A stretch of DNA of 34,100 nt from positions 1 to 34,100 of the forward strand of contig QEXY01000150.1 of NCBI GenBank assembly GCA_003130875.1, in the 5' to 3' direction. This stretch comes from Ardenticatenia bacterium (GTDB taxonomy: Bacteria > Chloroflexota > Anaerolineae > 4572-78 > NAK82). This document shows positions 13,792 to 33,576 of this stretch, one piece after another. Each line of letters begins with the position of its first letter. The first letter of the stretch is position 1. The translations under genes and the position numbers were made by a program. A model generated the notes under the pieces. The model was not told the DNA's origin. It saw only the letters and a program-made list of their open reading frames with translations, and did not search any database.

Positions 13792-13795
13792 CTCT

Positions 13796-15391: not shown

Positions 15392-15436
15392 GAGACTCTA
15401 AGGCGTTTTTTAGCGAGAGAGAGATGGGAATGAGAG

Positions 15437-17548
15437 ATGGGCTTAGTTGTAAGCTTAAAGAGGCTGTGGGTAGTGACACTGCCCGTATTGCTGGCGGTGT
15501 GTTTTGTCTTATCGATTATTGCAATGTTACACAGCGGTGATACCTCTGCGGCGACGACTTGGTCACCCGGCCTCTACAGCCAGCAGGTAGTGGGTGGTCT
15601 GACCAACCCGACCGCCATCGCCTGGACACCTGATGGTCGGATGTTGATCGCACTCAAAGAGGGCAAGATACTGGTCTACAAGAATGGCCAGCTGTTGCCG
15701 ACACCTTTCGTCGACCTCTCGAACGAAGTGAACGACGTAGCTGACCGCGGACTGCTGAGCTTGGCGGTGGATCCACAATTTGATAACAACCGGTACATCT
15801 ACCTGCTTTATGCTTACGATCCACCTGAACTGCCAGGTGCGCCTAACTCGGCCGATGGTTCGGATGGCGATGGCCAGCGTGTGGCACGCTTGGTGCGCGT
15901 CAAAGCGAATGGGGATACAGCCGATCTCGCTACCAAGGAGGTGATCCTGGGCAAGAATAGCACTTATGCCAATATCGGTGCCGCGGATGATCCGGACGGT
16001 GGTGGACCCCATACTTCGTGCGAGGATAGTGGTGTGCCGGTGGAGGATTGCATTCCCGCCGACAGCGCTTCTCATACTATTGGCTCGGTGGCCTTCGGCA
16101 CCGACCGTTCGTTGTTTGTTAGTGTGGGTGATGGAGCGCGCTTTGTCGTGGTGGACCCGCGAGCATTACGCGCTTATGATGTGAACAGCCTGGCGGGCAA
16201 GATTTTGCGCATCGATCCCGACACCGGTAATGGATATGCAGACAACCCGTGGTGCGACAGTCCCACCAATATAGACAAGAACCGTTGCAAGGTATATGCC
16301 ACTGGCTTGCGCAACCCCTTCCGCATGAAAGTCGATCCTACCACCAATGAACCGTATCATGGCAACGTGGGTTGGTTCTCATGGGAGGAGATCAACACTG
16401 GCCGTGGCAAGAATTTCGGCTGGCCGTGTTGGGAGGGTAACGAGCACCAGGGCTTGTACAATGGACCCGAGGAAAGCTACGAAAAGAATCCAGTCACGGC
16501 GATGCAGTGCCAGGCGGTGTATAGTGGCACCCTTGGGCCAGTTGAGCCACCCTATTACGCTTATCCACACTGGTATGACAATGCGCAACATGACGCATCT
16601 GCTATGGCTGGCCCGGTCTATACGGGCGCCAATCTCTCCTATCCGCCGGAGTACCACAACAAGCTGTTCATCTTCGACTATTCGGGCGACCAGGACTGGA
16701 TCAAGTATCTGACTCTGGATGGAGCGCCGCCACAGGTCGGCACGCTGGGCGAAGGAGTATCTGATATGGTGGGGCAATTTGCCGGTCCGGTGGACCTGGC
16801 GCTGAATCCCCACGACGGCGATCTGTACTATGTAGTGCTGAACGGCACCGGCCCTGGCCAGGTGCGGCGCATTCGCTATACAGAGGGCAACCTGCCACCG
16901 GTTGCCCATCTCAGCGCGATGCCGTTGTATGGCACGCTGCTCCTGACCGTCACCTTTTCGGCGGGAGGCTCTCACGACCCGGAGGCGCAGAGCATCACCT
17001 TCACCTGGGATTTCGGCGATGGCGTCCTCACAGACACAGGCGCATTGGCGACGATCACCCATACTTATAACACACCAGGCGTTTACACCGCCGTGATGAC
17101 GGTCACTGATGTACTCGGCGCACCCGATAGTACCACCGTGCAGGTGGTGGCGGGCAACCGTCCGCCGCAGGCATCCATCACCACGCCGCTGTCGGGCACT
17201 ACGTACTACGCTGGCAAGAACGTTCCCTTCTCCGGTGAGGCAAACGACCCCGAGGATGGCACCCTGGATGATACGCGGCTGCTATGGACAGGTCTGCTAC
17301 ACCACGAGGACCACGTGCACCCCGACCAATTCCGCGCGACAGGAACAAGTGGCAGCTTTGTCTATCCAGAACATGGTGGTGGGGAAATGTACTGGCTGGA
17401 GTTATGCCTGACGGTGACGGATAACGGCATCCCTGGTCAAGGCGGCATAGGTCCGCTTCAGAACAGGCGCTGTGTCGCCCTGTACTCTCACCATGATATG
17501 CAACCCAATAAGGTGTGGTTTCCTGTGATTGCCAAGCAAGAAGGATAA
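15437..17548 (+). CDS. Secreted sugar-dehydrogenase-type beta-propeller with PKD domain
   Basis: The 703-aa product starts with a hydrophobic signal segment (about 10-30). Residues ~45-480 are a six-bladed propeller of the glucose/sorbosone dehydrogenase (PQQ-dependent aldose dehydrogenase) type: NPTAIAWTPDGRMLIALKEG, RGLLSLAVDPQF, GLRNPFRMKVDP. A PKD domain follows (about 487-575, with FTWDFGDG and HTYNTPGVYTAVMTVTD), then an Ig-like domain. The end is VWFPVIAKQEG, a hydrophobic-P-V-I-basic tail like those of two other secreted proteins here. In the propeller the usual H-x-G-G around the catalytic His reads HTIGS, so true dehydrogenase activity is doubtful. It may bind or oxidise surface sugars. 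It follows the GT2 gene by 45 bp. Confidence 0.85.
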   Translation: MGLVVSLKRLWVVTLPVLLAVCFVLSIIAMLHSGDTSAATTWSPGLYSQQVVGGLTNPTAIAWTPDGRMLIALKEGKILVYKNGQLLPTPFVDLSNEVNDVADRGLLSLAVDPQFDNNRYIYLLYAYDPPELPGAPNSADGSDGDGQRVARLVRVKANGDTADLATKEVILGKNSTYANIGAADDPDGGGPHTSCEDSGVPVEDCIPADSASHTIGSVAFGTDRSLFVSVGDGARFVVVDPRALRAYDVNSLAGKILRIDPDTGNGYADNPWCDSPTNIDKNRCKVYATGLRNPFRMKVDPTTNEPYHGNVGWFSWEEINTGRGKNFGWPCWEGNEHQGLYNGPEESYEKNPVTAMQCQAVYSGTLGPVEPPYYAYPHWYDNAQHDASAMAGPVYTGANLSYPPEYHNKLFIFDYSGDQDWIKYLTLDGAPPQVGTLGEGVSDMVGQFAGPVDLALNPHDGDLYYVVLNGTGPGQVRRIRYTEGNLPPVAHLSAMPLYGTLLLTVTFSAGGSHDPEAQSITFTWDFGDGVLTDTGALATITHTYNTPGVYTAVMTVTDVLGAPDSTTVQVVAGNRPPQASITTPLSGTTYYAGKNVPFSGEANDPEDGTLDDTRLLWTGLLHHEDHVHPDQFRATGTSGSFVYPEHGGGEMYWLELCLTVTDNGIPGQGGIGPLQNRRCVALYSHHDMQPNKVWFPVIAKQEG

Positions 17549-17561
17549 ATCTGGGTTGCGC

Positions 17562-17586
17562 AGTATCCGACTAGAAGAGGGATACT
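17562..17586 (+). other. Intergenic 7-bp hairpin
   Basis: AGTATCC (17562-17568) and GGATACT (17580-17586) are perfect inverted repeats around an 11-base loop in the 65-bp gap before the GH26 gene. There is no T-run, so it is not a classic terminator. It could stabilise or process the mRNA between the two secreted-protein genes. Confidence 0.35.
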
Positions 17587-17613
17587 AGATGCTTACAGAG
17601 ACAGGATAGCAGG

Positions 17614-18618
17614 ATGAATCGAACACATTGGAAGAGAGTTCTCTGGTTATATGTTATAAGCTGGGTTACTTTGTGCCTGGGATTGGGGATGCCGATAGCA
17701 GCACAGACACCGACGCCTCCGATCTCAATCGGTCGCGTGGCGGTGGGCGCCTTCACTCAAGAGATCCCATACGACAACTTCGCCGCCCTGGATCGCCTCG
17801 GACTGCTGGTCAATCACCCGATGCGCCTGGCATTATGGTTCCAGGCATGGGGCGACTCGGATGCAAGCTTCCATAACGATTATGTAAAGTTAGCTTCCAT
17901 GAAAGGCTACACGCCGGTGATCACCTGGGAACCATGGAAGCGCGCCTTCGACGACCGGCTAACCGTGCAACCAGAGTACGCCCTGGAGACCATCGCAGCG
18001 GGAAAACACGATGAGTACATTCGCAGCTGGGCACGCGATGCGCGGGACACCGGTGTGCCGATCATTCTGCGCTTCGCTCACGAGCAGAGCACCGAACCGG
18101 GAGTGCGTTCCTGGTATCCATGGCAGGGTGATCCGGAGAACTTCAGGGCTGCCTTTCGTCATATTGTCACTCTCTTCCGTGAAGAGGGTGCCACCAATGT
18201 GACCCACCTGTGGAGTGCGATGTGGCTGCACAAGTGGGCCGCACAATATTATCCGGGCGATGACGTCGTGGACTATATTGGCACGACCGAGCTCAATCAC
18301 GGCACCGTGCCGGATGAGCAGTGGGCGAAATGGCGCACGTTCGACGAGATGTTCGCCCCGGAATATCAAGCCGCCCTGCAATGGAACAAGCCCATTATTT
18401 TGACTGAGCTGGCGTCCGCCGAACAGGGAGGCAACAAGGCACAATGGTTGCGTAATTGTTTCGCCTCTTTTAAGACCCACTATCCTATGGTGGTCGGTGT
18501 CCTGTTGGTGGAGATCCGGTCCGACCGCGAGTGGCCGGCTATCAATTGGTCGGTGACCTCCAGCCCAGCAGCACTGCAGGCATTCCGAGAGGCAATCAGC
18601 GATCCTTACTTCTGGTAG
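17614..18618 (+). CDS. Secreted glycoside hydrolase family 26-like (beta-mannanase clan)
   Basis: The 334-aa product has a signal peptide ending near GMPIAAQ (about residue 30), a short TPTPP linker and a TIM barrel. The GH26 catalytic pair is readable: acid/base E157 in LRFAHEQS with the preceding His, and nucleophile E265 in ILTELASAEQGG; WYPWQGDPENF matches the loop after the first glutamate. GH26 enzymes cleave beta-1,4-mannans or, less often, mixed-linkage glucans and xylans. There is no carbohydrate-binding domain. An AGCAGG-like site precedes the ATG. Its place two genes after a polysaccharide synthase suggests trimming or release of the nascent polymer rather than scavenging of plant mannan; this is inference. 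Confidence 0.87.
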   Translation: MNRTHWKRVLWLYVISWVTLCLGLGMPIAAQTPTPPISIGRVAVGAFTQEIPYDNFAALDRLGLLVNHPMRLALWFQAWGDSDASFHNDYVKLASMKGYTPVITWEPWKRAFDDRLTVQPEYALETIAAGKHDEYIRSWARDARDTGVPIILRFAHEQSTEPGVRSWYPWQGDPENFRAAFRHIVTLFREEGATNVTHLWSAMWLHKWAAQYYPGDDVVDYIGTTELNHGTVPDEQWAKWRTFDEMFAPEYQAALQWNKPIILTELASAEQGGNKAQWLRNCFASFKTHYPMVVGVLLVEIRSDREWPAINWSVTSSPAALQAFREAISDPYFW

Positions 18619-18680
18619 GTAAGCGAGACAAATATGTCACCAATCAAAGCACTGTCAAACCGAAAGGGGGATAGGCACCG

Positions 18681-19016
18681 ATGGGGCTTTGTAAGGAATG
18701 CGTCGCGTTCCATCTAGGCGCGTGCCGTGACTTGAGCTATTGCCTTCAGGAGCGAAAGGCATTGATGGAAGAAGCCTATCAACGGGCACAGGCACATAAG
18801 CATGCCGAATTGAGCTCTTTCACACGCTGGCGCGAGGGTTATTCCATTTTTGAAGCACACTGTTTGGCTTGCGGCATGGTTGTACGCGTCGACGTCAACC
18901 CGGCCATCGGCGAACCTGATCTCTCCGGTGAGGCGCTCTTTCAGGATTGCCCCCTTGCCCCAACAGGACCGATCGCCACTTCGAACAGGGACGCTCCATC
19001 GAGCTGGGCGATCTAA
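18681..19016 (+). CDS. Small Cys-rich protein of unknown function
   Basis: The 111-aa product is not recognised. It has two cysteine groups: C4-x2-C7 with C15 and C21 near the N-terminus, and C61-x2-C64 (HCLACG) followed by a lone C89, which could bind zinc or an Fe-S cluster. A charged helix (about 24-45) lies between them, and the last 20 residues look disordered. It has no signal peptide or membrane helix, so is probably cytosolic. AAGGGGG about ten bases upstream supports the ATG at 18681. The stop codon touches the GTG start of the following glycosyltransferase, suggesting coupled translation. Confidence 0.6.
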   Translation: MGLCKECVAFHLGACRDLSYCLQERKALMEEAYQRAQAHKHAELSSFTRWREGYSIFEAHCLACGMVVRVDVNPAIGEPDLSGEALFQDCPLAPTGPIATSNRDAPSSWAI

Positions 19017-20537
19017 GTGGTGCAACGAGGGTCAAGAGTGTATCGTATGGCCCGAGCATACCGGCTGCGCTGGCTTGAGATCCCAGCTGTCCTCTTACTC
19101 ATGATCCTCGCTGCCCTGCTGCGCTGGAATTGGGACTATCGCAGCGCGTCCGTGGATGAAGCGAGCAACCTTTTCAACGGTTGGTTGCTGCTCCAGGGAC
19201 AGGAAGTCCACACCATGGCTTATCAACCCACCTGGCCCTACATGGGCATGCTGCCGCTGGGCTGGGTCGATATGTGGGGTGGACTCATCGCTGCGCGAGC
19301 GCTCAACAGCGTATGGGGTGTGTTGAGCGTGTCGTTAGTAGCGTTGACCGCGCGGAGCGCCTTTGGTGTCCCAGCGGGCATATTGGCAGGCGTTGTCCTA
19401 GCTGTTTACGGACCGGCCATTCATCTCAGCACATTTGCTTCGCACGACAGCTTGGCCATCTTCCTACTGTGCCTGGCACTGTACTTGTGGACAATTGCCA
19501 CTCTACGCGGACGCGCCTGGCTGTTGCCGCTGGGCAGCCTAGCCATGGTGGGTGCGGTATTGACCAACTATATACTCCTGATGGTTGCAGCAGGCACCCT
19601 AGTATATCTCACCCTCACTGGAGCGATTGCCCAGATACGGCGTGGCAAAACGCCCGATGACACCTGGCCACATCCGATGCGCTGGGGATGGCTGGTGTCC
19701 CTGTGGCTTCCGTTTCTGCTGTTAATCGGGTATGGATGGTATTATCGCGTCGAATTATCGCAACTATGGCAAGCGCACGTGCTCACCTCTCACCTGCCAC
19801 AACCCCTTATCACGTGGGATTTCGTCAAACCACTACGCGATTACTTGTGGGCTCCTTTCCTGGCTGGGCTGCTCGCCTTTGATCGATCTGGGCGGCGGCT
19901 GTTTGCCGGCTGGCTGTGGCTGCTCGCATTTATCCTGATCGCGCACCAATGGTACAGCCAGGACGCTACCCGCTTGGTGCCACAGACGGTTTATATCATG
20001 GTCAGCCTGGCTATCCTCGCCGGCGGGGGTTTGGTCACGCTAGCACGTGGATGGGAAGCAAAAGCGGCACGACGTGCCGCAGTGGCTGCAGCGTTGATGC
20101 TGAGCATCGCCCTCCTCAGTCACCTTGGCTTGGAAGGGCAGAAAGTATTGCCAGGCTTGCGCAGCTATTGGCCCGAAACCAGTCCGTTGATGGCCTTTCT
20201 ACGCAATCGGGTGAGCGATGGGGATGTGATCCTAATGGAAGAGGGAGCGGTGGGACGCTATTACTTGATCGCGCACGGCACACCAGGCCACATTCCGGCA
20301 CAGGTATGGGACACCTGGTACTATCAGGACGAAACGGGAAGAGGATCCGATGCAGCGTTGTACGAGCGTGCCATTGCGCAGCAACGCTTTGATTACGTTG
20401 TTTTCGACTACAACGTCACCAAGGAGCTGGATCAAGCGGTTTTGCCCGCGTTACGGCGTGGTTATCGTTTGATCGCCACTTTTCCAACGCAGACCGGCAA
20501 CAGCCAGCCCATTGAGGTGTTCGAGAAGATAGAGTAG
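19017..20537 (+). CDS. Second GT-C (ArnT/GT39-like) membrane glycosyltransferase
   Basis: The 506-aa polytopic protein has a first membrane helix (about 22-38) followed by D47-E48 in SASVDEASNLFNG. This is the loop-1 acidic motif of GT-C transferases that use polyprenyl-phosphate sugars. About ten more hydrophobic segments follow, then a soluble domain of some 120 residues. It resembles the gene at 12385 in plan, but the sequence is clearly diverged. Start is GTG 19017, directly after the previous stop; ATG 19047 with GAGGGTCAAGAG upstream is an alternative. It is the last plus-strand gene of the glycan block, ending 19 bp before the convergent GH113 gene. Confidence 0.8.
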   Translation: MVQRGSRVYRMARAYRLRWLEIPAVLLLMILAALLRWNWDYRSASVDEASNLFNGWLLLQGQEVHTMAYQPTWPYMGMLPLGWVDMWGGLIAARALNSVWGVLSVSLVALTARSAFGVPAGILAGVVLAVYGPAIHLSTFASHDSLAIFLLCLALYLWTIATLRGRAWLLPLGSLAMVGAVLTNYILLMVAAGTLVYLTLTGAIAQIRRGKTPDDTWPHPMRWGWLVSLWLPFLLLIGYGWYYRVELSQLWQAHVLTSHLPQPLITWDFVKPLRDYLWAPFLAGLLAFDRSGRRLFAGWLWLLAFILIAHQWYSQDATRLVPQTVYIMVSLAILAGGGLVTLARGWEAKAARRAAVAAALMLSIALLSHLGLEGQKVLPGLRSYWPETSPLMAFLRNRVSDGDVILMEEGAVGRYYLIAHGTPGHIPAQVWDTWYYQDETGRGSDAALYERAIAQQRFDYVVFDYNVTKELDQAVLPALRRGYRLIATFPTQTGNSQPIEVFEKIE

Positions 20538-20556
20538 CCTTGAGCACACGGACACG

Positions 20557-22218
20557 TCAGCGTGCGATGACCGGCAGCATGATCTGGTAGTCTGGCTCCC
20601 TGGCGGCCACGAAGCGCAAATTGGCGAGGTAAAGCGAGGCGTTCTGGCCCCCCTGTTCCTGGATGCTCACCCGCGTGATGCGTCTGCCCAAGCGGTTCAG
20701 GTCGCTCAGACGCAGGCGTGCCAGCTTCCATTCGGCGGTGATATTGCCTCCACTGATGTGGCGACAGTCGTTTACCGGCACGCGCAGCCCTTCCGCGCCA
20801 TTCTCGTCGCTCAGAAAGACCGTCAAGCGCGGCGAGGTGCTGTTGGCACTGCGCACGTAGAACTCCAGCCAATAGTAGGGGCTCACATCGTGCGGCGGTG
20901 AGTGCCACAGCGAGAGAGCCCCATAAGGTTGTACGGTCAATGCAACAGATAGTGTGCCTTCTGGAGATAGTGGCTCAGCTCCCATCTCCAAAGCGCTGAT
21001 ACCCCACGACCAGTTCTGCCAATTGCTCGCCAGGGCGCCATTGTAGATGGGCAACTGGGTGACGTAATCGGGCACCCGTGTCGGCTCGACAGGACGCGGT
21101 GGCGCACCATACCAGCGTCGCAGGATATCCTCGGCCGGCTTTTCAGCAGGCGTATATCCCATGTCGCACGGACCGCTCTCAAACGGATCCGCCGACCACA
21201 TCCACCAGAACATCCCTGCCAACCACGGCTCGTTAAACAATTGTCGAAATGCCGCTTCGTAGGCGTTCGCTTGTTCCTCCATGTCGAGCTGAGAGGTCTC
21301 CCAAGAATCCCATGGCTTCACTGTACACCCGTGACGGCTACGATAACCGATCTCGGTCAGCAAGATCGGCTTGCGATATTTCGCCGATAACTCCGCCAAA
21401 ATCGCCTTGGGACCCGTCCAGGCAGCTTCCAGCTGCTCCACAGTAGGATGAACGCCTGGGTTGGGATTCAGTGGATAGTAGCCATCCACACCAATGTAGT
21501 CCACTGCATCCCACCAGGTGATAGAGACCTCCTCACCCTCTTTAAGGGCCGCATAAACGATAGGCCCCTTGTAGATAGCTCGCACACCGGCTGCCACGGC
21601 ACGCCAGTCGCTAGCACGATGCGTGGTACCCAGCAATTCGGTGCCGATACAAAACTGCTCGACTCCGTGTGCCTGGGCCAAGGCGGCATAATGATTGATA
21701 AACTCCCGATAGGCATTAAACCAGGCTGCCCACTGAGTTTCGGTGGTGAACGCCTTGCCGATATCGCCGCGCCACGGCCCACCCGGCACTTCGTTGAAGA
21801 GATCCACATGGGGCTTCAGCATCACCTTCAGCCCCATGCGATGCGCCAGATGAATCGCATGGATAAGATCCTCGTCGGTTGGGGTCGAGGGATGCGTGCG
21901 GTCAATAGTGGTCGCAGCAATGCCATCTTGATGACCAGTCACAATGAGAGCAATCCAGTTGGCGCCGGTAGCGCGCAGTGCCTGGAGCGCCACCTCAGCG
22001 CCCTGGGTGCGATAGACACCCGACCACCAAGCAGCAAAGGAAACACCCTTCTGAAATGCGGGATTTGCCTGCTCCGTGAGAGGCCCATCGGCCCGCGCTT
22101 CCGCGGCCGGGCTCATCCAGAGAAGTCCAATGCACAGGAGAACGGATATGGCAGAACGCCGAATGGTGCAGAATACATCGTCCAAGCCATCCTGTCGCGC
22201 TTTTCCACCCTTAGCCAT
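20557..22218 (-). CDS. Secreted glycoside hydrolase family 113-like with C-terminal beta domain
   Basis: The 553-aa product has a signal peptide with a long basic N-region (hydrophobic core about 23-38), a TIM barrel (about 55-375) and a C-terminal beta-sandwich of carbohydrate-binding type (about 390-535). The barrel matches GH113 (beta-1,4-mannanase family): acid/base E194 in CIGTELLGTTHR, nucleophile E289 in ILLTEIGYRSRHG, and FWWMWSADPF at the end of strand eight. It ends in IMLPVIAR, the same kind of tail as the propeller and beta-helix proteins. It faces the glycan block tail to tail. With the GH26 gene it gives two unrelated mannanase-type enzymes within 5 kb, suggesting a mannose-containing polymer. 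Confidence 0.87.
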   Translation of the reverse strand: MAKGGKARQDGLDDVFCTIRRSAISVLLCIGLLWMSPAAEARADGPLTEQANPAFQKGVSFAAWWSGVYRTQGAEVALQALRATGANWIALIVTGHQDGIAATTIDRTHPSTPTDEDLIHAIHLAHRMGLKVMLKPHVDLFNEVPGGPWRGDIGKAFTTETQWAAWFNAYREFINHYAALAQAHGVEQFCIGTELLGTTHRASDWRAVAAGVRAIYKGPIVYAALKEGEEVSITWWDAVDYIGVDGYYPLNPNPGVHPTVEQLEAAWTGPKAILAELSAKYRKPILLTEIGYRSRHGCTVKPWDSWETSQLDMEEQANAYEAAFRQLFNEPWLAGMFWWMWSADPFESGPCDMGYTPAEKPAEDILRRWYGAPPRPVEPTRVPDYVTQLPIYNGALASNWQNWSWGISALEMGAEPLSPEGTLSVALTVQPYGALSLWHSPPHDVSPYYWLEFYVRSANSTSPRLTVFLSDENGAEGLRVPVNDCRHISGGNITAEWKLARLRLSDLNRLGRRITRVSIQEQGGQNASLYLANLRFVAAREPDYQIMLPVIAR

Positions 22219-22614
22219 TCTCTAGGTACTCCGGTTGATCTCCCTAAGCGCCATCCACCCATCTTCCGCTATACCACAAGCACTGCTCAGCATAGCAGAC
22301 AAAAGGTGCTCCACCTTGACCACTGGTTGACTATTCAACGTCGACTGCCCTTCGATTACACAATGCAAACCCAGCCCCGAGAGACCAGATCCGGATCGGG
22401 CAGCACTGCTCTCAAAGGCGCCCTACAGCGAGTGTAACATAGACAACCGTGCTCTTGAATGGGAAAGAGGTACTATAACAAAGAGATAAACCAGACCCGT
22501 TATCCCGGAAAGGCTGGACGGTCCCAGTATGCCAACCTTTGCTGCTAATAATGCACGAGGATCGGGAAAGCGTGCTCTCCAGTGAGATCGAAAGGGCGAA
22601 ACTTCAGCGCCTTT
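22219..22614. other. Intergenic region upstream of GH113
   Basis: This 396-bp stretch has no supported gene. It holds a perfect inverted repeat GTTGA-CTAT-TCAAC (22326-22339), operator-like in size. On the minus strand there is a weak promoter candidate for the GH113 gene (TTCAAG, complement of 22454-22459; 17-bp spacer; TACACT, complement of 22431-22436). The left part could also carry the end of the amidohydrolase transcript, but no strong hairpin with a T-run was found. Confidence 0.35.
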
Positions 22615-25139: not shown

Positions 25140-25283
25140 CGTTTTGCTCCCGTGAGAATAGATTTCGTAGAAATGGTATACCACTCAGCTGGTTTGTTCG
25201 GCTTTGGAGCGCAAGAAGTGCTTGACCCGCTCCCGTTCCGACCTATTGTTGCTCCCCTGTTCGCTCTCTGTTTCGGATTCAGG

Positions 25284-26627
25284 TCACCAGCCGGCATAAG
25301 GCGCAATCACCTCGTCGCTGACACGCCCCATCTCCACATCGGAAAGCGCTTGATCCAGGATAGCCACACCCTCATCCACTTCCGCCTCGCTGAGAACCAA
25401 CGGGGGGGTGATTTCCAGCACGTTTGAGAACATGCCCACATAAAAGAGCAGCAGCCCCAGTTCGAAAGCGCGGTAGACCACCTTCGCCGCTTCGCGGGCA
25501 GCAGGCGCTTTGGTTTGACGGTCGTGAACCAGCTCCACACCCTGCATCAAGCCCATACCGCGCACATCGCCGATCAACGGATGCCGTTCCTGCAACTCGC
25601 ACAAGCGCTGGTGCAAGTACGTTCCCACCCGCGCGGCATTTTCTGGCATTTTCTCCTGCTCAATCGCTTCGAGCGTTGCTAGACCGGCAGCACAGCTCAG
25701 CGGATTGCCAGCGGTAGTGAAGATCGCCAACCCAATACCGGCGTCGAGGATTTCCTTGCGTGCCACCACAGCGCTCAAGGGGATACCATTCCCCAGCGCT
25801 TTGCCCAACACCAACACGTCGGGTGTCACCCCGAAGTGTTCCGGTGAGAACATCCGGCCCGTGCGTCCCACGCCCACTTTGACATCGTCCACGACGAGAT
25901 AAATCCCATAGCGCTGACACAAGTCCGCTAACATGGGCAGGAAGGTGGCGGGTGGGACGATGTCGCCGCCATCGCTCTGGATCGTCTCTACGATGATGCC
26001 GGCCACGTCATCCGGCGGGCAGATCGTCTTGAAGAGATAATCTTCCAGGAAGCGGATGGTGGCTTGGGCGCAGTCGTGCACGTCATCTCCGAAGGGGCAT
26101 CGGTAGGGATGAGGATAGGGCACTTTGACCACGTGCCCCCCACCGATAAAGTGACTCTGTGCCGCGTGGGCGGACATCGCCATAGAAGTCGCCGTGGCAC
26201 CGTGATAAGCGCCGATAAAGGACACCAGGCGACGCCTGCCCGTAGCAATGGGGAGCAGTCGGCCTACTGTCTCATTGGCATCCGAACCGCAGAAGCCAAA
26301 CCAAACCTTCTTGGGAAAGTCGCCAGGGGTGAGCGCGATCAGCTTTTCGGCCAGCTGCAACGCCGGGGCATGCATGCCCGAGATCAGACTGGCGAAGTTA
26401 GTGCGCTCCAGTTGGCTCAAGAGCGCCTCCCTAAAGCGGGGATGGCCATAACCGATGTTCACCACCGCCCAGCCAGCGGCGAAATCGAGATATGCCTTGC
26501 CTTGCACATCCCACACACGGCAACCTTGCGCGCGTTCCACCGCGAGCGGGTAGAAGCGCAACCGCATCGCATCGGAGATCACCTTGGCATCCAGCGCCGA
26601 CATTGCTTCCAGAGAGAGCATCACCAC
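25284..26627 (-). CDS. Class-III PLP aminotransferase-fold enzyme
   Basis: The 447-aa product belongs to the fold-type-I class-III aminotransferases (4-aminobutyrate, acetylornithine, and some amino-acid racemases). The PLP lysine is K276 in VLGKALGNGIP; GSDANE (114-119) and AYHGAT bind the cofactor phosphate. The motif usually read as DEVQ-x-G-x-GRTG is DDVKVGVGRTG here (247-256): the Asp that bonds the pyridine nitrogen is kept but the Gln next to the ring hydroxyl is Lys. The start is one of GTG 26627, GTG 26624 or ATG 26621, with AAAGG upstream. It lies between the liv permease and the glutamine-synthetase-like gene. It could transaminate or racemise the imported compound; the substrate is unknown. 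Confidence 0.88.
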   Translation of the reverse strand: MVMLSLEAMSALDAKVISDAMRLRFYPLAVERAQGCRVWDVQGKAYLDFAAGWAVVNIGYGHPRFREALLSQLERTNFASLISGMHAPALQLAEKLIALTPGDFPKKVWFGFCGSDANETVGRLLPIATGRRRLVSFIGAYHGATATSMAMSAHAAQSHFIGGGHVVKVPYPHPYRCPFGDDVHDCAQATIRFLEDYLFKTICPPDDVAGIIVETIQSDGGDIVPPATFLPMLADLCQRYGIYLVVDDVKVGVGRTGRMFSPEHFGVTPDVLVLGKALGNGIPLSAVVARKEILDAGIGLAIFTTAGNPLSCAAGLATLEAIEQEKMPENAARVGTYLHQRLCELQERHPLIGDVRGMGLMQGVELVHDRQTKAPAAREAAKVVYRAFELGLLLFYVGMFSNVLEITPPLVLSEAEVDEGVAILDQALSDVEMGRVSDEVIAPYAGW

Positions 26628-26648
26628 CCATCGCCTTTCTGCACGTAG

Positions 26649-27671
26649 CTATAAGCGCAGCTCTCGTGAGCCCAGAATGCCCGAAGGACGCATAATCAAA
26701 ATGAGAATCATCGCGATCGAAAGGCATACCTCGGTGAGTCCGGAGACAGTGAACGGGAAGACGGCCGAGATATTGATCGCATTCTCGACACCACGCACTC
26801 CCTCAAAGATCGCCGTCACCGCTACTGCCCCCACAACAGCACCGCTGACACTGGCGCTCCCGCCAATGATGGCCATCGATATGATCAAGAATGTCTGGGG
26901 TAGGTAGAAAGCCAGCGGCGAAAAAGAGGTGATGAAATGTGCCCATAAGGCACCCGCCACGCCGGTTACGAAGGCAGCCAACACAAAGGCGACCCAGCGC
27001 ACCCACACAATGTTAATCCCGACGCTGGCAGCAGCGGCTTCATCCTCACGCGAGGCCCGCAGCTGCAATCCCAGTGGGGTCTCTTTAAACCATAACGCCA
27101 GAAGGAGAAACAAGATGCCGGTCGCTGCACTCACCCATAGCGTGGTATACGCCTCCAGGCCGAACAATGTGCGTGGGCCGTTGGTGACTTCAGACCAGTT
27201 GATCAAGACGGTATGCACGATGATCAACAGAGCGAAGGTGGCGATGACCGCAGCCGCTCCCGAGAGACGCATCAACGGATAACCCACCAGAGCAGCTACC
27301 AGCGCGGCCATCAAGCCGCCGATGATCACCGCCACCACAAAAGGCACCTGAATCGGCACCAACCAGGAGTAAAGATTGCGCAAGGCCATCGCCTTCGCCT
27401 GGGGCGACATAGAGAAGAGCGCCGAGGCATAGGCACCAATACCCATGAAGCCAATCGGGGCGAAGGAAACGACCCCAGAGTTCCCCATGAAAATCTGCAA
27501 CCCCAACACCATCGAAAGGTTGATGAACAGCACGGTCAGAATGCGCTGCAACACCTCTCCCCCGAAGAGATGCACCACCAATGCCAGCACGATTAACGGA
27601 CCAGCGAGGAGCAGTCCGGTAGACCACTTGCCGAAGCTTTCCAGATAACTCATCCTTTGCATGCGCATCAT
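26649..27671 (-). CDS. livM: Branched-chain amino-acid-type ABC transporter permease LivM
   Basis: The 340-aa integral membrane protein has about nine hydrophobic segments. Family motifs are the NLSMVLGLQIFMGNSGVVSF region near the first helices and the LRASREDEAAAASVGIN coupling loop that contacts the ATPases; FLIISMAIIGGSASVSGAVV is also typical. It forms the channel with LivH. The exact start is uncertain: ATGs at 27671, 27668, 27662 and 27653 follow a single AGG, and 27662 has the best spacing. It follows livH by six bases and precedes the aminotransferase by about 20. The C-terminus FRPSGI-like segment (MRPSGILGS) is normal. Confidence 0.93.
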   Translation of the reverse strand: MMRMQRMSYLESFGKWSTGLLLAGPLIVLALVVHLFGGEVLQRILTVLFINLSMVLGLQIFMGNSGVVSFAPIGFMGIGAYASALFSMSPQAKAMALRNLYSWLVPIQVPFVVAVIIGGLMAALVAALVGYPLMRLSGAAAVIATFALLIIVHTVLINWSEVTNGPRTLFGLEAYTTLWVSAATGILFLLLALWFKETPLGLQLRASREDEAAAASVGINIVWVRWVAFVLAAFVTGVAGALWAHFITSFSPLAFYLPQTFLIISMAIIGGSASVSGAVVGAVAVTAIFEGVRGVENAINISAVFPFTVSGLTEVCLSIAMILILIMRPSGILGSRELRL

Positions 27672-27677
27672 CCTGGT

Positions 27678-28577
27678 TCAAACACGTTCTGTTACAGCGC
27701 GGCCGCGTACCAGACCCTGTGGGCGGAAAAGGAGCACCAGCAGCACGATAGCAAACACAAAAGCTTGGCGATAATCCAGCAAGGATTGGGGTAACACAAG
27801 CTGCAACCCCACCGTGAGTGTGCCCAAAAGGTAACCGCCGATCACGGCGCCGGTCAAGCTCTCCATGCCGCCCACAACGGCAGCCACAAAGGCAACCAAA
27901 ACCGGTGTCGAACCGACAAACGGCCCGACCGAACCCAACCGCCCGATCCAGAACAGCGCCACCACACCGGCCAGGAAGCCGCTAATGGCAAACGCGGTGG
28001 CGATCACCTGATTGGCTCGGATACCGACCAGGCGGGTCATCACGAAATCATCCGCTGCGGCACGCAGGGCAATGCCCAACAACGTGCGCCGCAGAAACAA
28101 TGTGAGCAATCCCAGCAGAAGCAGGCTGACCACCAGGCTGGCAAGGTTTCCCTTGGAAATCAGCAGATTGCCCACCTGAAAATTCTCGGTGAAGAAGGAG
28201 GGGGTCACCACCGCCTTGGCGCGCGGGGAGACAAACAGGATCGCGGCATTTTGCAGCAAAGCGCTGACCGCAAACGAGGTGATCAGCATCGTGGTAGCAG
28301 AAGCCTGGCGCACCGGTCGGAAGGCCACCCGTTCCAGAAGCAAGCTGGTGAGCACCGCCATGCCAACGCTGATGACGGCGACGATTAACCATGGAATAGG
28401 TCCGGCACCCAGCATGAGCAATGTGTAACCCGCGACCATCACCAACTCGCCATAGGCGAAATTGACCAGCCTCAGAATGCCATACACGATGACCAGCCCG
28501 AGCGCCATCAGCGCATACAGCCCTCCCAAGCTCAGGGCATTGATGATGAATTGCAGTACTTCCTGAAGCACATTCAC
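27678..28577 (-). CDS. livH: Branched-chain amino-acid-type ABC transporter permease LivH
   Basis: The 299-aa membrane protein begins VLQFIINALSLGGLYALMAL, the usual LivH start, and has about eight helices, the RAAADDFVMTRLVGI coupling loop and the closing LLFRPQGLVRG. GTG 28577 is taken as the start because it gives the family-typical N-terminus and has AGGAGAG upstream inside the end of livF; the frame is open another 28 codons, which would overlap livF. It pairs with LivM to form the transmembrane channel. Confidence 0.93.
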   Translation of the reverse strand: MNVLQEVLQFIINALSLGGLYALMALGLVIVYGILRLVNFAYGELVMVAGYTLLMLGAGPIPWLIVAVISVGMAVLTSLLLERVAFRPVRQASATTMLITSFAVSALLQNAAILFVSPRAKAVVTPSFFTENFQVGNLLISKGNLASLVVSLLLLGLLTLFLRRTLLGIALRAAADDFVMTRLVGIRANQVIATAFAISGFLAGVVALFWIGRLGSVGPFVGSTPVLVAFVAAVVGGMESLTGAVIGGYLLGTLTVGLQLVLPQSLLDYRQAFVFAIVLLVLLFRPQGLVRGRAVTERV

Positions 28578-28581
28578 CGGC

Positions 28582-29301
28582 TCAGCTTCTCTCCTGCGTA
28601 TCCCCAAGATATGCGCCCACGATATCCACCTGCTGGCGCAGCTGTTCTGGGGTGCCCTCACATTCCACCCGACCCGTGTTCAAAAGGTATACACGATCCG
28701 CGATATCCAACGTGCGTTCCACGTTCTGCTCCACCAACAAAACGGTAACCCCGGAGGCGTGAAGCTGGGTGATCATCGCAAAGACCTCATCTACCAAGAT
28801 GGGAGAAAGACCCAGCGAGGGTTCATCCATCATGAGCAAGCGGGGGCGTGACATCAGCGCGCGGGCGATTGCCAGCTGCTGTTGCTCACCACCTGACAAG
28901 GTGCCACCCGGCTGGTGGAACCGCTTGCCCAGAATCGGAAAGCGCGTGCACATCTCTTCGATGTCGCGTTGCACTCCGGCTGGATCACGGCGGGTGGCCG
29001 CTCCCAGACGCAAATTTTCGGCCACCGTCAAGCTGGGGAAGATGCGACGTCCCTCTGGCACCAGGGCGATGCCTTGTCGCACGATCTCCTCGGGGGACAA
29101 ACCCAGGAGTGAGCGTCCCTCAAAAGTGATTTGGCCACGAAATGGCCTCAGCACTCCAGCGATCGTGGCCATCAGGGTGCTTTTGCCGGCACCGTTCGCA
29201 CCCACCAGCGCTACCAGCTCGCCTGTATTGACATGCAGCGACACACCCCGCAATGCGATGATCGCGCCATAACCCGCATGCACATCTTCAACGCTTAGCA
29301 T
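28582..29301 (-). CDS. livF: ABC transporter ATP-binding protein LivF
   Basis: The 239-aa ATPase has Walker A GANGAGKST, signature LSGGEQQQLAIARAL, Walker B LLMMDEPSLGL and the H-loop region VLLVEQNVERTLDIADRVY with VEQN, typical of LivF. It is the smaller of the two ATPases. Its ATG at 29301 overlaps the end of livG by seven bases, so the two are made together. It drives the LivHM channel from the cytosolic side. Confidence 0.95.
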   Translation of the reverse strand: MLSVEDVHAGYGAIIALRGVSLHVNTGELVALVGANGAGKSTLMATIAGVLRPFRGQITFEGRSLLGLSPEEIVRQGIALVPEGRRIFPSLTVAENLRLGAATRRDPAGVQRDIEEMCTRFPILGKRFHQPGGTLSGGEQQQLAIARALMSRPRLLMMDEPSLGLSPILVDEVFAMITQLHASGVTVLLVEQNVERTLDIADRVYLLNTGRVECEGTPEQLRQQVDIVGAYLGDTQERS

Positions 29302-30044
29302 GGCAACACCCGGCGGCTTGTTCCCAAGTAGGCGGCGATGACTTCGGGGTTGTGACGCACCTCAGCGGGTGTCCCTTCGCAAATGGTGCGGCCATAATTC
29401 AGCACGTGCAGGCGGTGGCATAACCGCATAATGAGGCGCATATCGTGATCCACGATCAACACACCGCACCCGATCTCTCGCGGCAAGGGCAACAACATCT
29501 CCAGCAGAGCGTCACTTTCCTGCTCGTTCAAGCCCGCTGCTGGCTCGTCCAAGAAGAGGAAGATCGGTCGAGAGGCCAGTGCACGCGCGATCTCGACACG
29601 TCGCTCTTCGCCGTAGGGCAACGCACCCGCCGGGACAGTGGCGAGGCGCGTTGCCCCCACTTGCTCTAATGCCCAGAGCGCTTGTTCACGCGCCCGATGC
29701 CGCGGCAGCCCAGCGCTGACAGCCGCCACTTCCACATTCTCCAGCACAGTCAATCCGCGGAACAGCTTGATGGTCTGGAACGTGCGCGCCAGCCCAACGT
29801 GCGCAATGCGATGGGGCGGCCAGCCCGTGATGTCCATCTCGCCCACGCGAACACGGCCGCGTGTCGGTTTCAGGAAACCGGTGACCACATTGATCAAGGT
29901 GGTCTTGCCCGAGCCGTTGGGCCCGATCAAGCCTAGAATCTCACCGCGTTGCAAGTGCAGCGTGACATCTTCCAGAGCGCGCAGCCCCACGAAGTCCTTG
30001 GTGATCTCCTCGATGTGCAGTGTCAGCGCATCGTCCCGAGTCAT
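29295..30044 (-). CDS. livG: ABC transporter ATP-binding protein LivG
   Basis: The 249-aa ATPase has Walker A GPNGSGKTT, the LivG-typical GLARTFQTIKLFRGLTVLENV (Q-loop region), signature LPYGEERRVEIARAL, Walker B IFLFLDEPAAGL followed by NEQE, and H-loop LIVDHDMRLIMRL. ATG 30044 with GCAGGGG upstream is chosen; the open frame runs back to 30203, but that would overlap the end of the binding-protein gene by more than 100 bases. It overlaps livF by seven bases at its end and is 41 bases after livK. Confidence 0.95.
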   Translation of the reverse strand: MTRDDALTLHIEEITKDFVGLRALEDVTLHLQRGEILGLIGPNGSGKTTLINVVTGFLKPTRGRVRVGEMDITGWPPHRIAHVGLARTFQTIKLFRGLTVLENVEVAAVSAGLPRHRAREQALWALEQVGATRLATVPAGALPYGEERRVEIARALASRPIFLFLDEPAAGLNEQESDALLEMLLPLPREIGCGVLIVDHDMRLIMRLCHRLHVLNYGRTICEGTPAEVRHNPEVIAAYLGTSRRVLPC

Positions 30045-30085
30045 CACCCCTGCCGCTTTAGCTGGATTAGGATCTTGGGCTCCGT

Positions 30086-31369
30086 TTATGGTTGCGGCGG
30101 ATTGGTCGGCCGCATCCAGCCCAAGAATTGAGGCTGACCACCCTGCACCACCACAATTGCGGCTTCCTTCTGCGGCTGGTGGCCCGATTCGGCGTCCGAC
30201 CACTTGAGCTTCCCGCTCAGCAGGTCGAACTCCATTTCCTCCATTGCCTTGCCCAGAGCAGCTCCTTCCGTGGTGCCGGCTTTTTCCACCGCCTGAGCGA
30301 TGATCTTGATGACATCCCAGCCCATGACGATGAAGGCACTGGAAGGTGGTTCGCCATATTTGTCTTTGTAGAGCTGGACGAAGCGCGCCATCTCACCGCC
30401 CGCTTCAGGTCCCAGCCAGCTGTGCGTGGCCATGTAAAGGTCGTTAGCTAGGTCGGGACCAAGCGTCTTGTAGAGCTCGGTATCGTCATAGGTGTCGCCG
30501 CCTGCCAGCGGAATGGTGATCCCTGCCGCGCGCACCTGGCGCAATACGATGCCCAGGTCTGGCATGGTGCCAGTGATGTAGAGCACATCAGGCTGCGAGG
30601 AAAGCCCTTTAATGCGCTGCACCTGAGCGGAGAAGTCCTGGTCGCCCGCAGTGAAAGTATCGCGCCCGATCACCCGGCCGCCCAACCCGGTGAAATGCTG
30701 CTCGAAATAATCACCCAGCGAGGTGGCATAATCGGTAGAGGTGTCCGTGACGATGTAGGCGGTGCGCCAGTTGAGCTTCTCGTAGCCATACTCGGCCATG
30801 GCGGCGCCCATGATATTATTCCACATGCCGACGGTGAACTGCTTATCCCCCAGCACCTTCGAGCTGTACAACGGCGAGGTGGCACACGTGGAAATGCCTA
30901 CCAAGCCTTTTTCCTGAGCTGCCTGGCTGGCAGGCGCACCGATGTCGAAGTCACAAGGGGCGATGATCACCTCCGCGCCCTGACTGATCAGCTGGCGTGC
31001 AGCATTGCCCACCGTCGCCGGATCGGTCTTGCCGTCCAGCTCGATCAACTTGAGCTCACGCCCCATGACCCCTCCATGGGCGTTGATATCCTCGATCGCC
31101 AGGAGCGCCGCACTGCGGGGCAGCTGGTCATACGTTGCCATCCAGCCGGTGGCATTAAACACCGCCCCCACGATCAGCGGCGGCTTGTTGGGATCAGGAG
31201 TTGCCAGCGGACGTTCTGTGGGCATTGCAGTAGCTTCTTGACCGGCCTCCGGAGTGGGGGTTTGGGCACGTGCCGGTATGGCGTGGAACCATCCAATGCC
31301 TATCATCAGAGTCAATGCTAGAAACAGTGCCAGAAAATGGGTGAGCGAAGTTCTGCCTTCTCGTTTCAT
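30086..31369 (-). CDS. livK: ABC transporter substrate-binding protein LivK-type
   Basis: The 427-aa product is the extracellular receptor of the importer (periplasmic-binding-protein type I fold): PLIVGAVFNATGWMATYDQ, AALLAIEDINAHGGVMG, a ligand cleft with AEVIIAPCDFDIGAPASQAA, and TDTSTDYATSLGDYFEQHF. Start ATG 31369 has a perfect AAGGAGG in front. The N-terminal signal (hydrophobic core about 13-27, cleavage near IPARA-QT) lacks a lipobox cysteine, and a long Thr/Pro-rich linker follows. It is therefore unclear how it is held at the membrane; the leader may stay uncleaved as an anchor. The substrate may not be a branched-chain amino acid, since this family is broad and the neighbours are amine/amino-acid enzymes. 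Confidence 0.93.
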   Translation of the reverse strand: MKREGRTSLTHFLALFLALTLMIGIGWFHAIPARAQTPTPEAGQEATAMPTERPLATPDPNKPPLIVGAVFNATGWMATYDQLPRSAALLAIEDINAHGGVMGRELKLIELDGKTDPATVGNAARQLISQGAEVIIAPCDFDIGAPASQAAQEKGLVGISTCATSPLYSSKVLGDKQFTVGMWNNIMGAAMAEYGYEKLNWRTAYIVTDTSTDYATSLGDYFEQHFTGLGGRVIGRDTFTAGDQDFSAQVQRIKGLSSQPDVLYITGTMPDLGIVLRQVRAAGITIPLAGGDTYDDTELYKTLGPDLANDLYMATHSWLGPEAGGEMARFVQLYKDKYGEPPSSAFIVMGWDVIKIIAQAVEKAGTTEGAALGKAMEEMEFDLLSGKLKWSDAESGHQPQKEAAIVVVQGGQPQFLGWMRPTNPPQP

Positions 31370-31429
31370 GATCCCCTCCTTTTGAATATGCACTTATGGA
31401 AAGAGCACTGAGCACAATCCGCCATCGAT

Positions 31430-31555
31430 TCAAACGACCCTTTCACTCTGGGCACCTTCTATGCCCGGGGCAATCCGAAACCCTATGGAGACAAGAGCTT
31501 TGTCGTAGAACCGGGGGCGATGGCTCTCGCACCTTTGTTGCAGAACGTCCTGCAT
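31430..31555 (-). pseudogene. Possible relic of a formylglycine-generating-enzyme (FGE/SUMF1) domain C-terminus
   Basis: The minus-strand frame reads QQRCESHRPRFYDKALVSIGF followed by RIAPGIEG and a stop at 31430. The R-C-x2-R/H-x-R...GFR-[IVL]-A pattern is that of the last ~25 residues of FGE-sulfatase domains, which end in GFR-x-A. Nothing upstream in this frame matches the rest of the domain, and no ribosome site precedes it. It is therefore at best a decayed fragment. The similarity is short and recalled, not searched. Confidence 0.3.
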
Positions 31556-31618
31556 CATGGCTAAAGCAAAGCAAATCACACAGTGGCAAGGGGACACGAC
31601 GTATCTTACCTCAATGAG

Positions 31619-31644
31619 GTTGCCCCTGTCCCAGTAGGGGCGAC
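31619..31644. repeat. Strong intergenic hairpin, REP-like or bidirectional terminator
   Basis: GTTGCCCCT (31619-31627) and AGGGGCGAC (31636-31644) pair over nine positions (one G-T wobble) around an eight-base loop. The stem is GC-rich and lies in the gene-free spacer after the stop of the beta-helix gene (minus strand). Short AGGGGC...GCCCCT hairpins are common dispersed intergenic elements in some bacteria. Without a T-run it is a poor intrinsic terminator. Confidence 0.45.
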
Positions 31645-31833
31645 TATCGTGCTGAACCAAATTTGGCGATAAATTCTATACCGTTACGGCTCTGCTTGCA
31701 AGCTGGGGGGTCTTGGGCTAGATCGTGCGAACCTTGGGCGTCCGTGGAGCTTCCGGCTGTGCATTGACCCCGTTACCCGTTAGTGGCTACCGGCGCATCC
31801 ATGCCTTGTATGCTTAGCTACCCTGCTCTTCCA

Positions 31834-33576
31834 CTACCGCCGCACCACAGGCAAGTAGACGGTGCTGCGCTGGCGCTCGTAGGCGCCCATGTCCACCGCC
31901 GCGCCGACAATGCGTGGTTTGCCGTCCAGGTCGGTCGTCACTCCGGCAGGCACAGCGGCGTTGTCGCCCTGGTCAATTGCCGGCGAGCTGGCTTGCAACC
32001 GATAGTTGCCGGTTGTGGTCGGCGCATACGTCGCCGCAACGGGCGCAACGAAGAGCGGATTGGCGTTGATGTTGCCCGTGCCGGGCCAACTGCCCTCCAC
32101 ATCACTGGTGGTGATGGTAACGGTGCTGGTTGCCGCCAGATGTACCTGTGCCCCGGTCGTGGCGGCGTTGCCCCACAGGATGGCATTGATTAGTGTGGTG
32201 TGACTCCAGGTGAGGACGCAGACGGCACCCCCTTCGAGGGTAGCACGATTGCCGGCCATAGTGACGTTGACCATCCGGCCACTGGAACGATCGGTGATGG
32301 CAACGGCGCCGCCGCGAGGCGCCTGATTACCGCTCAACAACACGTTGGTAGCGGTAAAGTGACTGTGCTCAGTGGTGTGCATCCCACCGCCCGCGATATC
32401 AGCCCGGTTGCCAGTGAGAGCGACGCGGTTGAGATTGACGTGACTGCCTCCCTCATTGTACATCCCACCACCGTAACGAGCAGAGTGATTGTCGCTGAAA
32501 GTCACCTGGGTCATGGTCAGGTAGCTCTGGTCATTATCGATCCCACCGCCGTACCAGGTAACCCCGTTTTTGTCGAAGGTCGCCTGGGTCAGGATCACGT
32601 TACTTTTGTAATTGCTCATCCCCCCACCGCTATCAGCCTGGTTGCCACTGAAGATCACATCGGTCAAACTGAGGGAACTATCACTAGTGTCCATCCCCCC
32701 ACCCCATGTCGCCTGGTTGCCACTGAAGATCACATCGGTCAAACTGAGGGAACTATCACTGGTGTCCATCCCCCCGCCCCATGTCGCCTGGTTGCCACTG
32801 AAGATCACATCGATCAAACTGAGGGAACTATCACGGGTGTCCATCCCCCCACCGCTCATACCAGCGTGGTTGCCACTGAAGGTCACATCGGTCAAACTGA
32901 GGGAACTATCACTGGCGCTCATCCCCCCGCCCCACTGCCCTTGATTGCCGCGGAAGGCGCAGTGGCGGATGACCGGGCTGGCATTGACCACGTCCATCCC
33001 GCCGCCGAAATTGTCGGTGAAGCCGGCGGAGATGGTGAAACCGTCGAGGACCGTGTTGGAGGTCACATTGGTGGCAGTGACGACGTGATAGGCATTGGCG
33101 CCGTGGATATGTGTGGTGGTGATCACCACACCGTTGGCGTCCTTGGTGTCGTTGTTGTCCAGATCGCCGCTCAACACGGTCACGTTGGTCGTCCAGTTGC
33201 GCTGGGTGCGTACCGTCTCCGTGCCGGCGAACCCGCCGTACAGGGCTATTCCTTCCTTGAGCTGGAAGGTGGCTGAGCGCGGATCGGCCGGATTAGTGCG
33301 TTTGGTCGGGGTGTAGACGCCGCGCGCCACCCAAATCTCATCGCCCGGCGACGCGGCGTCAATTGCCTGTTGCGGGTCAGTGTAGGCATTTGTCCAGGAT
33401 GTGCCGTTGCAGGCACCAGTCGCATCACGTTTCACGTAGCGGACGCTCGCCGCCGTAGCGCCAGGTGCGCTGTCGGCCAGCGCCCATACCAGGCCGATGA
33501 GCCATAGCGTCGGCAGGGCAAGTGCCAGCATAAGGGCCCATCGGTGTGCAGGATACTTCATCTCCTTCTCCTTCAT
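31834..33576 (-). CDS. Secreted right-handed parallel beta-helix protein
   Basis: The 580-aa product has a signal peptide (hydrophobic core about 15-32, cleavage near TAAS). A domain resembling the starts of polymorphic-outer-membrane-protein repeat proteins follows (RYVKRDATGACNGTSWTNAY, GDEIWVARGVY). Next come some twelve beta-helix coils of about 25 residues with GGGM turns and S-GN-A ladders, then an SSPAIDQGD...DMGAYE module that commonly ends such proteins. The last residues are STVYLPVVRR, the same tail type as two other secreted proteins here. Start ATG 33576 has a perfect AAAGGAGGTG in front. Such proteins may bind or cleave polysaccharide or act as adhesins; no catalytic site is evident. 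Three to four central coils are near-identical. Confidence 0.87.
   Translation of the reverse strand: MKEKEMKYPAHRWALMLALALPTLWLIGLVWALADSAPGATAASVRYVKRDATGACNGTSWTNAYTDPQQAIDAASPGDEIWVARGVYTPTKRTNPADPRSATFQLKEGIALYGGFAGTETVRTQRNWTTNVTVLSGDLDNNDTKDANGVVITTTHIHGANAYHVVTATNVTSNTVLDGFTISAGFTDNFGGGMDVVNASPVIRHCAFRGNQGQWGGGMSASDSSLSLTDVTFSGNHAGMSGGGMDTRDSSLSLIDVIFSGNQATWGGGMDTSDSSLSLTDVIFSGNQATWGGGMDTSDSSLSLTDVIFSGNQADSGGGMSNYKSNVILTQATFDKNGVTWYGGGIDNDQSYLTMTQVTFSDNHSARYGGGMYNEGGSHVNLNRVALTGNRADIAGGGMHTTEHSHFTATNVLLSGNQAPRGGAVAITDRSSGRMVNVTMAGNRATLEGGAVCVLTWSHTTLINAILWGNAATTGAQVHLAATSTVTITTSDVEGSWPGTGNINANPLFVAPVAATYAPTTTGNYRLQASSPAIDQGDNAAVPAGVTTDLDGKPRIVGAAVDMGAYERQRSTVYLPVVRR
32641..32943 (-). 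repeat. 75-bp tandem repeats inside the beta-helix gene
   Basis: Units beginning GTTGCCACTGAAG start at 32641, 32716, 32791 and 32869 on the plus strand, with spacings of 75, 75 and 78 bases. Each encodes one 25- or 26-residue coil, and the first three differ at only a few bases over most of the unit. The array keeps the reading frame, so coil number can change by slippage or recombination without breaking the protein. Confidence 0.92.

Follow-up and report, generated by a model that had tools for sequence, protein, structure and literature searches.

Chloroflexota are monoderm bacteria with a multilayered envelope and, in many cases, a sheath, and little is understood of how they fix proteins to their surface. 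The stretch analyzed here comprises 34,100 nucleotides from an Ardenticatenia bacterium (contig QEXY01000150.1 of assembly GCA_003130875.1; hereafter the window) and forms contig C114 of a 3.49-Mb draft genome in 195 contigs. Three secreted proteins of the window, a GSDH-type β-propeller with a PKD domain, a GH113 glycoside hydrolase and a choice-of-anchor-Q β-helix protein, terminate in WFPVIAK(QEG), MLPVIAR and YLPVVRR, respectively. An earlier note, made from the letters of the window, had read these endings as one tail shared by unrelated proteins and had taken it for a sorting or anchoring signal. All three open reading frame (ORF) ends were confirmed, as were the N-terminal signal segments of the three proteins and the lack of a tail in the neighboring GH26-type protein; the coordinates given for the tails were accurate to one or two codons. 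The tail exists as a modular element that closes secreted proteins across Chloroflexota, and is probably a genuine sorting or surface-retention signal of these bacteria, which lack an outer membrane.

A short tail at the end of secreted proteins

Alignment of 48 tails gave the consensus [RK]-[VIL]-[YF]-L-P-[LVI]-[IV]-x-[RK]-COOH, about nine residues long and found across Chloroflexota. It runs from R/K at position -4 through V/I/L (-3), F/Y (-2), L (-1), P (0), L/V/I (+1), I/V/L (+2) and any residue (+3) to R/K at +4. The proline is invariant and the terminal basic residue is present in all 48 tails, with the leucine in 42 and the aromatic residue in 40; in 44 of the 48, the stop codon follows directly upon position +4. 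Conservation ceases upstream of -5, and the logo of the 48 tails contains no membrane helix, in agreement with the earlier note. A lipobox match was found in 2/48 tailed proteins vs 45/321 for comparison (p 0.06), both tailed matches looking false by eye, which suggests that tailed proteins are rarely lipoproteins.

The tail is modular. The 38 tailed proteins compared match 79 Pfam families and have no C-terminal domain in common. Tails come after folded domains as well as after Pro-rich linkers (PPPDNPPPDNGIRRVFLPLVTR, SPTATTGSGSTLTPVRLFLPLITRP), so that a position at the very end after differing domains, noticed in three proteins, holds far beyond them. β-rich domains do close many tailed proteins, as would be expected if the tail were no more than the strand that completes some widespread C-terminal domain; this explanation is very improbable in view of the diversity of families, the lack of a shared C-terminal domain, the linkers ahead of the tail and the end of conservation at -5. 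Structure prediction points the same way. In the AlphaFold2 model of the window β-helix protein, the β-helix stops near residue 493 and the tail is unpacked, with a predicted local distance difference test score of about 29 over the last block, and in the model of a tailed C25 peptidase the tail is likewise predicted to be disordered. The two models, built on 5 and 9 sequences, have low confidence and no strand at the tail, and show only that it is not confidently packed.

As a mere DNA pattern ahead of stop codons, the tail shows no enrichment in the genome of the window (27 matches vs 32 for a reversed-pattern control), and the enrichment was therefore tested on genes; these ORF-level samples exclude the genomes with K-ending tails. 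In random stretches of five genomes, picked irrespective of tails, the tail was found on 12 of 232 secreted proteins vs 1 of 999 membrane or cytosolic proteins (Fisher p 1.7e-8), the sole exception looking like a surface-protein fragment. Shuffling of the last twelve residues expects 0.125 tails among the 232 secreted proteins, which puts the observed excess at about 100-fold. Secreted proteins from unrelated families are thus enriched in the tail at their very C-terminus. Regions centered on hits gave 18/66 secreted vs 2/321 other proteins in G163, and 15/68 vs 1/285 in G165, a genome of the window's own class. In secreted proteins of a partly hit-centered sample, the motif lies 23 times at the exact end and 4 times internally. 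Within proteins, it occurs at ~7e-5 per residue (32 in 445,804); given this internal rate, the three tails among the seven secreted proteins of the window have a P of about 2e-9, although the motif was defined post hoc. The genome has further tails outside the window, HLPVISR at the end of an FG-GAP protein on contig C58 and FLPVVRR at that of a C25-peptidase fragment on contig C25. All four long ORFs of the genome that genuinely end in the tail encode extracellular-type proteins, and three further K-ending matches (YLPVIRK, YLPIIRK, YLPIIRK) were seen at the DNA level only.

The DNA pattern [YF][LF]P(hydrophobic)2-x-[R/S]-stop was then counted against its reversed form in 201 Chloroflexota genomes. 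Strong contrasts include 32 vs 5 (G058), 25 vs 3 (G067), 23 vs 3 (G022), 20 vs 1 (G163) and 14 vs 3 (G101). The excess is confined to some families, with many others showing none, and the K-ending form of the tail adds the f31/g43 genomes. We take G115, G163 and G107 to be Chloroflexus aurantiacus J-10-fl, Roseiflexus sp. RS-1 and Herpetosiphon aurantiacus, respectively, and the tail would therefore span both the window's own class and the Chloroflexia. Similar LP-hydrophobic-basic endings in other Chloroflexota, mentioned in the earlier note, were thus borne out on the scale of the phylum. Chance or a compositional bias of C-termini, to which the unenriched DNA pattern of the window's own genome might point, can practically be dismissed: the excess over shuffled C-termini is restricted to secreted proteins, and the reversed-pattern controls are much lower in many genomes.

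Within choice-of-anchor families, the tail and known sorting signals also replace one another. The choice-of-anchor models of NCBIfam describe domains whose downstream sorting signal varies between bacteria, and models of the choice-of-anchor Q/T/J/X, CSLREA and rhombotarget-A types match tailed proteins, among them NF041518 in the window β-helix protein. Named relatives of this protein were gathered from GTDB genomes and their C-terminal ends were compared. In four Chloroflexota relatives, a (V/C)DMGAYE motif runs directly into the tail (FQPRLYLPMIHR, ...FSFLPMIIR, ...HVFLPLIQR, ...NIFLPLILR). At the corresponding end, several relatives from Bacteroidota have a domain of the type IX secretion system (T9SS), many from Planctomycetota a dockerin-like repeat, and one from Phycisphaerae a PEP-CTERM-like helix, as read from the sequence by eye; an untailed relative from HGW-Chloroflexi-6 (L262) ends in SLH-like repeats. 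None of the 116 secreted genes in non-Chloroflexota loci carries the tail. Homologues of the propeller in Herpetosiphon-like (f31) genomes end in YLPVVRK, YLPIVRK or, in G067, FLPTVQR, and those of f34, f17 and f3 with a visible end are untailed. A choice-of-anchor protein of Anaerolineales HSG24 (L333) has an internal KIYLPLIIK about 31 residues ahead of its stop codon.

Candidate partners

Families that might recognize the tail were screened candidate by candidate, not in an unbiased way. Sortase was rejected for its mismatched distribution: PF04203 occurs in 34 of 41 genomes, tail-rich and tail-poor alike, and is missing from the tail-rich G165. Exosortase was rejected since PF09721 scores above its cut-off in just 2 of 41 genomes, G011 being the only tail-rich one of the two. 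SLH domains, as partner or as substitute, were found in only one of 60 screened Chloroflexota genomes (26 matches in G109, none in the other 59) and were likewise rejected. The idea that the tail is an LPXTG-like signal for a class A-F sortase draws on its LP core, on the wide occurrence of sortase and on a sortase gene adjoining the second C25 copy in Herpetosiphon-like genomes. It is nevertheless largely refuted and has a very slim chance, as the tail has no T-G, no membrane helix and only one or two basic residues, and sortase is equally present where tails are scarce.

By contrast with these families, a PorU-like Peptidase_C25 follows the tail. Genomes were counted as tail-rich when tails exceeded the control by 3 or more, which holds for 22 of the 201 (G147 and G159 by DNA counts only). 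At E-values of at most 1e-20, Peptidase_C25 is present in 19 of the 22 tail-rich vs 9 of the 179 other genomes (p 4.7e-17), and by family in 10/12 vs 3/55 (p 7e-8); these p-values ignore the shared ancestry of the genomes and are so inflated. At least six of the nine C25-bearing other genomes are tail-positive, by tailed ORFs or by tail-variant ends of C25 or propeller proteins, and contrasts within families agree with the tail in f58 (G163 vs G139) and f5 (G101, G165 and G197 vs G173). DUF11, a common surface repeat taken as control, is present in 77 of the 179 tail-poor genomes and is far less tail-specific.

The C25 proteins resemble PorU over most of their length, with NF033707 matches down to 6.4e-55 (165-186 bits, below the equivalog cut-off of 420 bits), and PorU 6za2 is both the top Foldseek match (4e-22) and the best relative in the PDB. 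At the position of the T9SS domain of PorU, they have the tail or a variant form as their ending. The Peptidase_C25 fold, the PorU-like N-terminal region and the His/Cys dyad are all present, the dyad being kept in 23 of 24 copies. The one loss is in the sole C25 of the tail-rich G101 (G101:C1 118994-119980, L244), where both catalytic residues are replaced, His to Gln and Cys to Ser; tail-rich G034 has no C25. The protease or transpeptidase of matching phyletic spread that the earlier note had envisaged thus has one good candidate, tempered by the two counter-examples G034 and G101, both of which are tailed; C25 may therefore be an enzyme, a cargo or both.

Two gene arrangements were seen around C25. 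In nine f21 genomes, the gene immediately upstream of the PorU-like C25, and co-directional with it, encodes a DUF11 protein, and in G115 and G131 the end of this DUF11 protein has no canonical tail match. A second type of C25 peptidase directly adjoins a sortase gene in four f31 genomes, and G149 likewise has a C25 gene beside a sortase gene (G149:C25 41216-43503).

Probable retention at the cell surface and its alternatives

Enrichment on secreted proteins, modularity, a position typical of sorting signals and a phylum-wide spread support in part the earlier view of the tail as a sorting or anchoring signal, under which tailed proteins would be anchored and untailed ones released; retention at the cell surface and recognition by a dedicated partner are what we infer from them. 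Tailed proteins would traverse the single membrane by means of their N-terminal signal peptide, after which the tail, exposed, strand-like and ending in Arg/Lys, would be recognized by a partner in the envelope. This partner would hold the protein, or attach it, at the cell surface or within an outer protein or polysaccharide layer. The tail would so take the role that LPXTG, PEP-CTERM, T9SS domains, dockerins or SLH play in the same protein families elsewhere, and the best candidate for the partner is the tail-bearing, PorU-like C25 cysteine peptidase, whose distribution over the genomes follows that of the tail. Chloroflexota are regarded as monoderm and as lacking genes for BAM or lipopolysaccharide (PMC7511795, PMC13319060), and outer-membrane β-signals are therefore an unlikely model for the tail. 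No earlier description of the motif or of a Chloroflexota sorting signal was found in the open literature or in NCBIfam, subscription literature lying outside the search, and the tail seems to be a hitherto undescribed label that directs proteins to the cell envelope. Several points weigh against a sorting signal. Only about 5% of the secreted proteins in the random samples are tailed, hence the tail is not universal; secretion was assigned by a simple hydrophobicity script, not by SignalP; some tails are degenerate or are followed by up to five further residues (QEG, P, RLEW); and the role of the tail may be purely physical, through aggregation or membrane contact.

How a retention signal would act can be pictured in two ways. 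The tail might be kept and act as an edge strand or a terminal-Arg peptide that docks non-covalently with a receptor of the envelope, for instance a wall polymer or a sheath or S-layer-like protein. Its short strand-like alternation, the lack of a membrane helix and of a conserved upstream cleavage context, the predicted disorder of the tail in the β-helix and C25 models, and the C25 exceptions G034 and G101 are all consistent with docking, as is the replacement of the tail by SLH domains, which act non-covalently, in the homologue L262. The strict terminal R/K and the invariant proline would suit an enzyme equally well, and the tolerance of residues beyond the basic one speaks against such docking, which we regard as a serious possibility with somewhat less than an even chance. 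Alternatively, the PorU-like C25 could cleave or transpeptidate the tail and link the cargo to an acceptor on the cell surface, in the manner of PorU acting on the T9SS cargo of Bacteroidota, here with no outer membrane. PorU cleaves T9SS signals, and a sortase-like attachment of cargo has been proposed for it (PMC4560394). The co-occurrence of C25 with tails, including most of the apparent exceptions, the contrasts within f58 and f5, the lower specificity of DUF11, the full-length similarity to PorU with the tail in place of its C-terminal domain (CTD), and the retained dyad argue for this role. The tail-rich but C25-free G034, the catalytically dead single copy of G101, scores below the curated cut-off, the relatedness of the genomes, the candidate-wise screening, and the tail on C25 itself, which might make it just a common cargo, argue against it. 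Cleavage or transpeptidation by C25 is speculative, and we consider it possible but doubtful. The fuller picture, a Chloroflexota sorting system without outer membrane, sortase or exosortase, in which a nine-residue tag is read by a tag-bearing PorU-like C25, possibly as what is left of a type-IX-like attachment step in bacteria that have lost their outer membrane, is on the whole unlikely.

Like the T9SS CTD of Bacteroidota, the tail sits at the C-terminus of Sec-exported proteins of many unrelated families, occupies the same site in choice-of-anchor Q proteins, and is accompanied by a PorU-like C25 that itself bears the signal. It differs in having about 9 residues instead of a β-sandwich domain of about 80, in the lack of an outer membrane in Chloroflexota (PMC7511795, PMC13319060) and in a C25 that scores below the PorU equivalog cut-off; no T9SS CTD model is among the 25 most frequent NCBIfam matches of 38 tailed proteins. 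With PEP-CTERM and exosortase (also GlyGly-CTERM and MYXO-CTERM), it shares a build in which a signal peptide and a variable body precede a short conserved motif at the C-terminus, and two of the tailed window genes lie within an exopolysaccharide-type locus. However, the tail has one or two terminal basic residues and no PEP motif, membrane helix or Arg cluster, and exosortase is missing from nearly all tailed genomes. The LP core close to the C-terminus of surface proteins recalls LPXTG, whereas the tail lies at the very end, without T-G or membrane helix and with a mismatched sortase distribution. In choice-of-anchor Q homologues, the C-terminal place of the tail can be taken by SLH and dockerin domains, but these are folded and act by binding to wall polymer or cohesin, and SLH is rare in the Chloroflexota genomes screened. 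A recognizable tag would permit sequence-based prediction of the surface proteome for the whole phylum and would serve for the display of enzymes on filamentous bacteria of hot habitats. A connection of a phylum without outer membrane to the PorU enzyme of T9SS is raised as well, and can be tested.

Gene neighborhoods and coordinates

Table. Coordinates of tailed proteins, untailed contrasts and C25 gene pairs
Feature	Location	Strand	Evidence or remark
Glucose/sorbosone-dehydrogenase (GSDH)-type β-propeller with PKD, secreted, 703 aa	window 15437..17548	+	PF07995 1.1e-34; PF18911 3.9e-18; signal segment
Tail VWFPVIAKQEG of the propeller/PKD protein	window 17513..17545	+	variant; three extra residues past the basic one
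GH26-type secreted protein	window 17614..18618	+	PF02156 2.1e-07; untailed internal contrast, end ISDPYFW
GH113 glycoside hydrolase, secreted, C-terminal carbohydrate-binding-like region, 553 aa	window 20557..22218	-	PF22612 3.5e-73
Tail IMLPVIAR of the GH113 enzyme	window 20560..20583	-	
ABC-transporter substrate-binding protein	window 30086..31393	-	PF13458 1.2e-54; untailed internal contrast
Right-handed β-helix protein, choice-of-anchor Q, secreted, 580 aa from chosen start	window 31834..33576	-	PF02415 4.9e-15; NF041518 1.2e-12
Tail VYLPVVRR of the β-helix protein	window 31837..31860	-	
Choice-of-anchor Q domain, residues 521-569 of 580	window 31870..32016	-	NF041518; immediately precedes the tail
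DUF11-C25 pair	G115:C1 1512411-1515883; G131:C1 2685862-2689450; and seven other f21 genomes		
Second-type C25 beside sortase	G067:C241 19403-21790; G075:C2 318045-320410; G031:C1 280944-283306; G040:C64 41221-43586		

Pfam matches group two PMT_2-type membrane glycosyltransferases, a cellulose-synthase-like GT2, GH26, GH113 and the GSDH propeller at 12385-22218 of the window, and from this gene content the region looks like a β-mannan-type exopolysaccharide locus.

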